Part shown: piece after piece, positions 41,857-44,495 of the stretch
Layout of the letters: the number at the start of each line of letters is the position of its first letter
How positions within the stretch are numbered: the first letter of the stretch is position 1
Assembly: GCA_038831005.1 (NCBI GenBank)
Contig: JAWBKZ010000002.1
Location: 1-64,000 of the forward strand
DNA length: 64,000 bases
Reading direction: 5' to 3'
Source of the DNA: Ignisphaera sp.
GTDB taxonomy: Archaea > Thermoproteota > Thermoprotei_A > Sulfolobales > Ignisphaeraceae
Program-made: the position numbers and the translations under genes
Notes under the pieces: generated by a model
What the model saw: only the letters and a program-made list of their open reading frames with translations
Told to the model about the DNA's origin: nothing
Databases searched by the model: none

Positions 41857-43674
41857 CTAATTCTTCTTATGGATAGCTCTTTTTATTGTCGAGATTATAA
41901 AGGATATGAGTTTGTCTGTTTTTTCAGCGGGTATTCCGATTCGATAGCTTCTAGCTATTGAGTAGAGATTTAGTGTAGCGTGCATTGGTATATACCCTAA
42001 TCTGTAGGCTTCAACAAGATATTCAAGATTATCATCAATAACGATAGCTTCATCACCTTTGCAAAGTTCTATGCATTTTTTGTAGAGGATCTTCTTTATC
42101 GGTCCAAATCCGCTGTCTCTACCAACAATATGGTCTATAGTGTTACTCAATCCTATTTTATCTAATATAATGGTTACTATATCTGTTGGCTGTTTCGTAG
42201 CTATACAGATTCTTGTGTGTTCTCTAAGTTCATTTAGTAGATTAGGTTCTACAAGTAACTCTACATTATCTACAGCTCTAAGCTCATGTTGTTTAACTGC
42301 ATCAGAAAGCTTTTGATATAGATCTAGATCTGTACTCCAATATCTAGTGAGAGTCCTATTAATGGTCTCCCACTTGTATAGAAAACCTTTTTCAATCAAT
42401 AATCTTCTTAACTTGACCCAATTAATAGGTAGCTTAACTAATGTGGCATCGAAATCTGATACTACAACCCTTTTAGAGCTTAGTAAAAATTTTTGAAATT
42501 TGTTGAACCAAGTGTTTAGCTGTTCTCTTGAACTAGATAGATACTGTATCCATCTATTTTTCTCGGATCCAAACTTCTGGAAAGCTTTTGTGGTCTGAAT
42601 AACAACCCTCGGTACATCACTTAGATCTACATCACTTTGTAGAGGATTCGATAAACCTATCTTAAAGAGCTTCAGCCATGTTCTAGGTATCTTCGGTAGG
42701 TATCTAAAGCCGTCCAGAAGCCATGCAAACGAGCCATCTCTAACATATAGTCTTTCCTTTAACTCTAAAGCATGGTCATCACCATAAAGATATAGAGCTA
42801 CTAGAAGTGCTGAAAACCTATACTTCAGCGCTTCAGAGAGATCTATGCTTCCCCAGAATTTAGGGTTCAATTCAATTATATAATAGTCACCAAATTCATC
42901 AATATACCTAGTCTCAACCATTAGTATTCCACTCCATCTAAGTCTATCCACAATCTTTCTACCCAATTCAATAAGTCTAGGGTCTTTCACTATACCCTGG
43001 GCTGCTAAACTAGCTCCACCAATAGGTGTATACTCTACAACTCTCTGGTGAGTGAATTCGATTATCGGGACTCCATTGAACGCTAACGCATAATATCCTC
43101 TAGCAATACCTTCGACATACTCTTGAACAACAACAGGAGATCTAGTTAAAGCTTCTCTAACTGCTGTTTCATAACCTAAATGAAACGATGGGTTAGATGC
43201 ATCACCGAGACCCTTAACCACTATAGGTGGCTTTAGACTATAGATTTTCTCGACATCATCTTCTTTCTCTATAAATACTTGGCGTGGATATAGAGCAATA
43301 TCTCCTAGGATTTCGCTACATCTAACTCTGTTAGATGCTAAAACAATACTCTCATGTGGAGGAGAGATAAGGACTATATCGAGATCCTCAAAATATCTTC
43401 TATTTTTCGAGAATATGTAGAAATCTATAAAATCTATAGGTAAAACAGCTCTACATTGATACATCTTAGCTATACCTGCTACTAAGTAAACCCACTTGTT
43501 ACTATCTCTATCAACTCTAACCATATGCACCTTATCGAAGTATCTAGAGAAGATATGTGGATGATACGTATGAGCCACACCAACAATTGCAAGCTTTAGT
43601 AAACTCTTTATAGATCTAGCTATAGCTACAGATTTTCTAGATGCTATAGAGGCTAAAACTATACAATCTCTCAA
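41857..43674 (-). CDS. ATP-grasp ligase fused to a HAD-superfamily phosphatase
   Basis: 605 residues. Residues about 1-330 are an ATP-grasp ligase: PPIVVKGLGDASNPSFHLGY (ATP-binding lysine and loop), VVVQEYVEG, and YIIELNPKFWGSIDLSEAL (metal-binding acid and Asn). Residues about 390-590 are a HAD hydrolase: VVVSDFDATLVKLP (DxDxT), ICIATKQPTDIV, then Lys in GPIKKILYKK and AIVIDDNLEYL. I know of no standard enzyme with this domain order. It is divergent from a polysaccharide deacetylase 38 bp away, suggesting cell-surface glycan or peptide modification. TTG 43674 follows GAGGT closely. Confidence 0.75.
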   Translation of the reverse strand: MRDCIVLASIASRKSVAIARSIKSLLKLAIVGVAHTYHPHIFSRYFDKVHMVRVDRDSNKWVYLVAGIAKMYQCRAVLPIDFIDFYIFSKNRRYFEDLDIVLISPPHESIVLASNRVRCSEILGDIALYPRQVFIEKEDDVEKIYSLKPPIVVKGLGDASNPSFHLGYETAVREALTRSPVVVQEYVEGIARGYYALAFNGVPIIEFTHQRVVEYTPIGGASLAAQGIVKDPRLIELGRKIVDRLRWSGILMVETRYIDEFGDYYIIELNPKFWGSIDLSEALKYRFSALLVALYLYGDDHALELKERLYVRDGSFAWLLDGFRYLPKIPRTWLKLFKIGLSNPLQSDVDLSDVPRVVIQTTKAFQKFGSEKNRWIQYLSSSREQLNTWFNKFQKFLLSSKRVVVSDFDATLVKLPINWVKLRRLLIEKGFLYKWETINRTLTRYWSTDLDLYQKLSDAVKQHELRAVDNVELLVEPNLLNELREHTRICIATKQPTDIVTIILDKIGLSNTIDHIVGRDSGFGPIKKILYKKCIELCKGDEAIVIDDNLEYLVEAYRLGYIPMHATLNLYSIARSYRIGIPAEKTDKLISFIISTIKRAIHKKN

Positions 43675-43712
43675 CTTACCTCAGAAACAAGCCACTTTAG
43701 GAGGTACTATAT

Positions 43713-44495
43713 ATGCTGTTAGTATTGACACATGATGTTGATTGGGGACGAAAAGGTCCTTCTGTAAACCATGTCCTAGATAGATTAAACAGATTCGACT
43801 TAAACGATAGACTGAGGTTCTTCACTTTACGAGACAATATATACGATGGCGTAACGCTCATAATGGAGTATGAACAGAGACAAGGGGTAAAGTCCACTTT
43901 CTTCTTTAGACCAGTATATGACGATGGTTCAACAGTTGAAGAGTATAGCGATATAGTTTCAGAACTTAGAAGAGGTGGATGGGAGGTTGGTCTACATGCA
44001 AACAATGGCGAAGATCTGAGCTCTATAGCTAGCGAGAAGATGATGGTTGAGAAAGTGTATGTTGAACCAGTTGTCAGTATGAGAGTCCATTACCTAAGGA
44101 TAAACCCAAACGTGATACCAATGCTTAAAACTATAGGTATAAAATTTGATAGCAGTTTGATGCCCTATAGATATGGAGTTTCGAAAAAGAATAGCGGATG
44201 TGTACTGTTTAAAGATGTTATTGAGTTACCTATAACTATTATGGATACATACATGTTCTCATACTGGAAAATAAACCCATTAAACACTTATGAAAAACTT
44301 ATAGAGATACTGAAGATATTATCAAATGAAGGAATCAAACTAGCCACAATTCTTTGGCACACCAATAGTGTCAGAATGATTGGAGGTAAAGACTATCTAA
44401 GATTTGTTGAAGAAATATGGAGACTAGAATGGATTAAACCTATCTGTATGCGGGATCTCAAGGACTATATACATTTATGTAGATTAGATCTATGA
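43713..44495 (+). CDS. Polysaccharide deacetylase-family protein (NodB-like fold)
   Basis: 260 residues. LVLTHDVDWGRK near the start supplies the Asp-x-Asp metal motif, STFFFRPVYDD and GGWEVGLHANNGED the His-containing second motif, and RVHYLRINPNVIPMLKTIGIKFDSSL a later catalytic-site strand. There is no signal peptide or transmembrane segment, so it acts in the cytoplasm or is exported by an unseen route. It would remove acetyl groups from an amino sugar. ATG 43713 follows GGAGGT. It is paired divergently with the ATP-grasp/HAD fusion. Confidence 0.85.
   Translation: MLLVLTHDVDWGRKGPSVNHVLDRLNRFDLNDRLRFFTLRDNIYDGVTLIMEYEQRQGVKSTFFFRPVYDDGSTVEEYSDIVSELRRGGWEVGLHANNGEDLSSIASEKMMVEKVYVEPVVSMRVHYLRINPNVIPMLKTIGIKFDSSLMPYRYGVSKKNSGCVLFKDVIELPITIMDTYMFSYWKINPLNTYEKLIEILKILSNEGIKLATILWHTNSVRMIGGKDYLRFVEEIWRLEWIKPICMRDLKDYIHLCRLDL

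Follow-up and report, generated by a model that had tools for sequence, protein, structure and literature searches.

What is a predicted carboxylate ligase doing when it is joined in one chain to a phosphatase and placed next to a polysaccharide deacetylase? The question is raised by two adjacent genes in the window (the whole stretch of 64,000 nucleotides that was analysed, apparently from the genus Ignisphaera), one encoding an ATP-grasp/HAD fusion protein and the other a NodB/CE4-type deacetylase. The reading we prefer, with a probability of about 0.5, is that the pair represents the archaeal version, with a fused HAD domain, of a widespread module in which an ATP-grasp ligase, a phosphoesterase and a NodB-type deacetylase carry out N-acyl exchange chemistry.

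The fusion protein and its deacetylase neighbour

An earlier note on this DNA had described an ATP-grasp/HAD fusion beside a polysaccharide deacetylase, and open reading frames, folds and recurrence in other genomes confirm that the arrangement is real. An ORF check of the window recovered both genes where they had been described (Table 1). They lie head-to-head with their starts separated by 38 bp, a gap in which GGAGGT precedes the deacetylase gene and GAGGT the fusion gene. At its right edge the gap has an AT-rich stretch, TATATA, that may serve as a promoter; a sigma-70-type promoter scan, which does not cover archaeal promoters, returned no match in these 38 bp. PADLOC matched none of the window proteins to an anti-phage defence model, and a defence-system reading was therefore dropped.

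Table 1. Positions of the features at the locus, numbered from the first letter of the window.
Feature	Position	Strand	Basis
ATP-grasp/HAD fusion protein, 605 aa, TTG start	41857..43674	-	ORF; start consistent with N-termini of orthologues; model with mean pLDDT 93.7
HAD phosphatase domain, residues about 399-605	41860..42480	-	Conserved motifs; HAD_2 matches of relatives
Linker, residues about 331-398, largely one long helix (354-398)	42481..42684	-	Secondary structure of the model
ATP-grasp ligase domain, residues about 1-330	42685..43674	-	Residue conservation; Foldseek matches
Intergenic gap with divergent starts	43675..43712	.	Sequence; head-to-head layout also at orthologous loci
NodB/CE4-type polysaccharide deacetylase (WbmS/VimE-like), 260 aa	43713..44495	+	ORF; conserved residues; Foldseek

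The AlphaFold model of the fusion, for which 25 relatives were aligned, has high confidence over its full length (pTM 0.91). Pfam recognizes the window copy only weakly, at 17.6 bits for HAD_2 (cut-off 23.8) and 16.4 bits for ATPgrasp_Ter, PF15632 (cut-off 29.1). A full-length relative at locus L059 passes both cut-offs (HAD_2, 61.3 bits; ATPgrasp_Ter, 30.6 bits), as does the ATP-grasp protein of L066 for PF15632, and nine of ten fusions match PF15632 at E <= 0.01. The nearest families of the ligase domain are ATPgrasp_Ter and the PRK12767 ‘carbamoyl phosphate synthase-like’ proteins, the latter label also being carried by its nearest NCBIfam models. The window copy differs from ATPgrasp_Ter in falling under the cut-off, in being fused to a HAD domain and in being paired with a deacetylase. 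Foldseek matched the ATP-grasp part to biotin carboxylase, carbamoyl phosphate synthetase and PurK; when the whole fusion was submitted the HAD domain obtained no fold match of its own, because the result was dominated by the ATP-grasp part. Relatives of the fusion match HAD_2 and phosphoglycolate phosphatase-like models. A PDB sequence search returned nothing informative for either the fusion or the deacetylase.

Degenerate catalytic residues in homologues, which the earlier note had named as evidence against its reading, were not seen: both active sites of the fusion are kept across the 23 distinct fusions. In the ATP-grasp domain, which has the fold and the ATP/Mg-binding Lys, Glu and Asn residues of its class, K154, E254, E268, N270 and K272 are identical in 23/23 fusions, as is a motif formed by H209, R211 and GG219-220. 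The HAD domain has a helical cap inserted after motif I and carries motifs I (DxD), II (T/S), III (K/R) and IV (acidic). D407 and D409 of motif I are identical in all 23; T/S493 of motif II (T493 in the window) and K/R527 of motif III (K527 in the window) occur in 22 of the 22 readable rows, and D548 of motif IV in 21 of 22. Motif IV deviates in detail, reading DDN.EY in Ignisphaera as opposed to the usual GD...D.

The deacetylase scores just under two Pfam cut-offs (WbmS-like, PF22537, 24.9 vs 27 bits; Polysacc_deac_1, 22.3 vs 23.1). Its model (pLDDT 91.8) matches the NodB/CE4 structures 3rxz, ArnD (8t0j) and WbmS (3hft) by Foldseek. The WbmS-like deacetylases (WbmS BB0128, PDB 3hft), its nearest Pfam family, share the NodB fold with it, and their association with O-antigen is a further likeness. 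The metal-binding Asp and His residues expected of a NodB fold are present: D8, D10, H95, R124, H126 and D146 are invariant among 18 relatives and H216 is nearly so. Judged by these residues, the catalytic sites of both proteins look intact. The deacetylase begins MLLVLTHDVDW, with its first catalytic Asp pair at residues 8 and 10; since the N-terminus is itself the catalytic strand and has no space for a signal peptide, the enzyme would be cytosolic, and it probably acts on a cytosolic precursor rather than on a finished surface glycan.

Recurrence of the pair within and beyond Ignisphaera

The fusion is present in 8 of the 11 genomes of the genus and the head-to-head pair in 7. Identity of the fusion across the genus is 46-58%, with invariant catalytic residues. 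Genes next to the pair, named by eye, vary: they are ATP-synthase-like in several species and of other kinds in G009, G001 and G000 (the window’s genome). Because the flanking genes differ between genomes, the fusion and the deacetylase behave as a unit within the genus. The sequences thus exclude a chance origin of the fusion and of the pair, given the 46-58% identity, the invariant catalytic residues and recurrence of the pair in distant archaea.

The intact Ignisphaera pair adjoins housekeeping genes and lies outside any glycan cluster. Decayed copies are found in other surroundings. G006 has an intact fusion without a deacetylase neighbour and, elsewhere, a broken deacetylase with one internal stop inside a glycosyltransferase cluster (G006:C3; L052:8407-8701). 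The window’s genome has a decayed second HAD copy immediately upstream of a GT4 glycosyltransferase gene (G000:C4:2629-2875; L053:2629-2875), surviving as two short pieces that correspond to residues 395-448 and 550-590. The GT4 protein at this remnant and the one near the G006 deacetylase remnant are 64% identical. Since decayed HAD and deacetylase copies adjoin related GT4 genes, these sequences link the pair, inside the genus, to glycan genes.

Also in the window’s genome is an exosortase/archaeosortase-like gene (PF09721; G000:C1:150245-151045, L206), absent from the other genomes of the genus that were searched. Of 18 genomes searched, 16 of them with the fusion, only 3 have PF09721, and a reading based on an exosortase/archaeosortase-linked linking sugar was dropped because of this rarity.

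The search for the same fusion and neighbour across archaea that the earlier note had proposed was successful, the deacetylase partner being conserved in other Thermoproteota and in Asgard archaea. Several further Thermoproteota families and two Asgard genomes have full-length fusions. A deacetylase gene lies within 3 kb of 18 of the 23 distinct fusions, and two more pairings are masked by contig ends (in G486, a divergent deacetylase fragment about 65 bp from the fusion; in G453, a split fusion copy followed by a deacetylase), so that about 20 of the 23 are paired. G006, G384 and G529 have the fusion, and no intact deacetylase was found in them. Beyond Ignisphaera, fusion and deacetylase genes often share a strand and in some cases overlap (L062, L131, L134, L137, L138). 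The earlier description of the genes as ‘divergently controlled’ therefore holds for the gene arrangement here but not as a general feature, the divergent layout being mostly local to Ignisphaera and a few relatives.

In the deacetylase tree, the deacetylases beside fusions fall into at least two distinct lineages, and those of L133, L137 and L138 cluster with the deacetylase of an operon that has a PHP-type phosphoesterase (L143). Since more than one deacetylase lineage stands beside fusions, the pairing has been re-formed rather than merely inherited, which argues for a functional link. A possible further, non-fused version of the pair is seen in G026, where the gene of a deacetylase with 42% identity runs into the start of an ATP-grasp gene of weak similarity (L050:10438-12305; E 3e-08).

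Alternation of HAD and PHP phosphoesterases

The closest non-fused ATP-grasp proteins, in bacteria and archaea, often have as neighbours a PHP-type phosphoesterase, encoded separately, and a similar deacetylase, frequently amid glycosyltransferase and flippase genes. A PHP gene lies within 3 kb in 26 of 72 non-fused rows, and in 21 of these 26 there is also a deacetylase; no PHP gene was found within that distance of any of the 23 fusions, and this HAD was near none of the 72 non-fused rows (many loci entered these counts with just 1.5 kb of flank). Rows with all three genes come from Bacteroidota, Planctomycetota, Chloroflexota, Acidobacteriota and archaea. The PHP partners match PF02811 and PF13263 (PHP/PHP_C) and their metal-ligand positions are conserved. 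No CpsB-type model was among the matches listed for them, and the idea that the bacterial partner is a capsule-type (CpsB) PHP tyrosine phosphatase was dropped on that account. Two of the bacterial deacetylases (L077:7294-8826 and L073:7553-8758) have an N-terminal DUF7033 domain that the short archaeal ones lack.

A tree of the ATP-grasp proteins unites all 23 distinct fusions in a single clade (support 100/100), nested among PHP-linked rows under midpoint rooting. This topology, together with the lack of PHP neighbours at the fusions, suggests that HAD replaced PHP probably once, within a conserved ligase-phosphoesterase-deacetylase module. The mutual exclusion of PHP and HAD has a Fisher p of 2.8e-4, a value that is not phylogenetically independent and calls for caution, because the HAD fusions are one clade and hence a single event. 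In the Bacteroidota sample, the more distant ATP-grasp proteins have for the most part neither partner, so the module characterizes the nearer ATP-grasp subfamily. There, a genomic module of three activities (ATP-grasp ligase, phosphoesterase and deacetylase) is very likely real.

Among the closest counterparts of the window pair are ATP-grasp - PHP - deacetylase operons of bacteria and archaea (L069, L071, L073, L077, L143), which have the ligase family, the deacetylase type and a phosphoesterase in third place in common with it. Their phosphoesterase is a separate PHP protein (CehA/McbA-like), whereas here it is a fused HAD domain. The set is not peculiar to archaea, since several bacterial phyla have the same three activities with PHP in place of HAD.

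A proposed N-acyl exchange and its competitors

At related loci, GT4 and GT2 glycosyltransferases, Polysacc_synt flippases and a DegT aminotransferase are among the neighbours, and a Halobellus locus has a GNAT/FemAB-type protein. The glycosyltransferases and flippases of these related clusters favour the surface-modification role suggested in the earlier note, but the position of the intact Ignisphaera pair outside a glycan cluster does not; for Ignisphaera itself such a role is plausible.

We infer what the pathway acts on, how its steps are ordered and where its product goes as follows. The cytosolic deacetylase would strip the N-acetyl group from an amino-sugar precursor, either nucleotide- or lipid-linked. 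The ATP-grasp domain would then convert a carboxylic acid into an activated acyl phosphate and couple the acid to the freed amine, so that the sugar receives a new N-acyl group (for example, aminoacyl or hydroxyacyl). The HAD domain, or PHP elsewhere, would dephosphorylate the donor of the acyl group, the product or some by-product, and the modified sugar would enter a surface glycan or glycoconjugate. The sequence of deacetylation and acylation of the freed amine is suggested by the adjacency of a cytosolic deacetylase and an ATP-grasp ligase, and it fits that adjacency better than does the attachment of an amino compound to a glycan acid, as had been supposed. More tentatively, and at rather less than even odds, we suggest a cross-domain N-acetyl exchange pathway that could be summarized as ‘deacetylate, ligate with ATP, dephosphorylate’; on the archaeal side, PHP would have given way to a ligase-fused HAD.

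The best documented parallel is the Wbp/Vim pathway of Porphyromonas gingivalis (PMC7468200), where VimE was proposed to remove the C-2 N-acetyl group before aminoacylation, the transfer of Ser or Gly being assigned to VimA. CE4-type N-deacetylation followed by addition of an amino acid to the freed amine, as proposed there, is common to both schemes. However, the second enzyme in that pathway is VimA, a GNAT/FemAB-type transferase, and not an ATP-grasp ligase, and a phosphoesterase partner has no part in it. The deacetylase of one bacterial module hits the VimE model at 3.6e-30; the equivalog cut-off of 440 bits is reached neither by the window deacetylase (14.3) nor by that of L071 (104.9). 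With the window protein so far under the cut-off, the VimE/VimA parallel is evidence of a similar way of working, by analogy, and not of membership.

Part of the evidence could be read differently. Mycothiol is made by the successive action of a glycosyltransferase, a phosphatase, a deacetylase and an amino-acid ligase, an order that the activities of the module formally match, and GT4 enzymes are common neighbours while the intact Ignisphaera pair is isolated in housekeeping surroundings; the module might by this logic make a small soluble metabolite and no surface glycan unit. We consider this unlikely, as the enzyme families are unlike those of mycothiol synthesis and the Asgard and bacterial loci have flippases and several glycosyltransferases of the kind typical for polysaccharide assembly. 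Somewhat less likely still is the alternative nearest to the wording of the earlier note, that the ATP-grasp domain turns the carboxyl group of a uronic acid into an amide, with ammonia or an amino compound as nucleophile, and that the deacetylase performs a separate tailoring step. Such glycans often contain uronamides, one of which is made by WbpS in P. gingivalis (PMC7468200), and the ‘carbamoyl phosphate synthase-like’ label of the nearest NCBIfam models points the same way; yet no glutaminase or other ammonia source was recognized beside the fusion at the loci read, and amidation leaves the constant deacetylase partner unexplained.

A kinship with the Ter-operon biosynthetic ATP-grasp/HAD pathway, which would make a nucleoside-like metabolite, seems very improbable. 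PF15632 is indeed the nearest Pfam family, matched by most of the fusions compared, but the window protein falls under its cut-off, a non-systematic look recognized no Ter-type genes around the loci, and we know of no deacetylase in the Ter-operon module. Unrelated roles for the two proteins, with merely coincidental adjacency, might be suggested by the three fusion-bearing genomes in which no intact deacetylase was found. This is strongly disfavoured because the pairing recurs, in about 20 of 23 fusions, in differing orientations and contexts and with more than one deacetylase lineage.

The preferred reading, N-acyl exchange by a ligase-phosphoesterase-deacetylase module, uses enzyme families and a general logic that are known; the combination and the domain replacement are apparently undescribed. 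Literature searches, which included few subscription papers, found no paper that joins an ATP-grasp protein, a PHP domain and a polysaccharide deacetylase, and related searches gave the same result; neither the bacterial nor the archaeal ATP-grasp - PHP - deacetylase operons were found described. The earlier statement that no described pathway has this set agrees with these searches. If the proposal is true, archaea and bacteria have in common a conserved sugar-tailoring module, three groups of poorly characterized genes acquire testable functions, and one phosphoesterase fold has substituted for another in the same gene set in a clean case. It would also offer a concrete route to the unusual N-acyl sugars of archaeal surface glycans, the biosynthesis of which is, to our knowledge, little known beyond a few model species.

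Some loci have a further type of neighbour. In two Acidobacteria, ATP-grasp proteins with no PHP gene near are fused to, or followed by, a P-loop kinase-like protein (L066:5695-7482; L075:6679-7926), and at the L059 fusion locus a kinase-like P-loop gene comes after the deacetylase. These kinase-like neighbours suggest that a phosphorylated intermediate may be involved.
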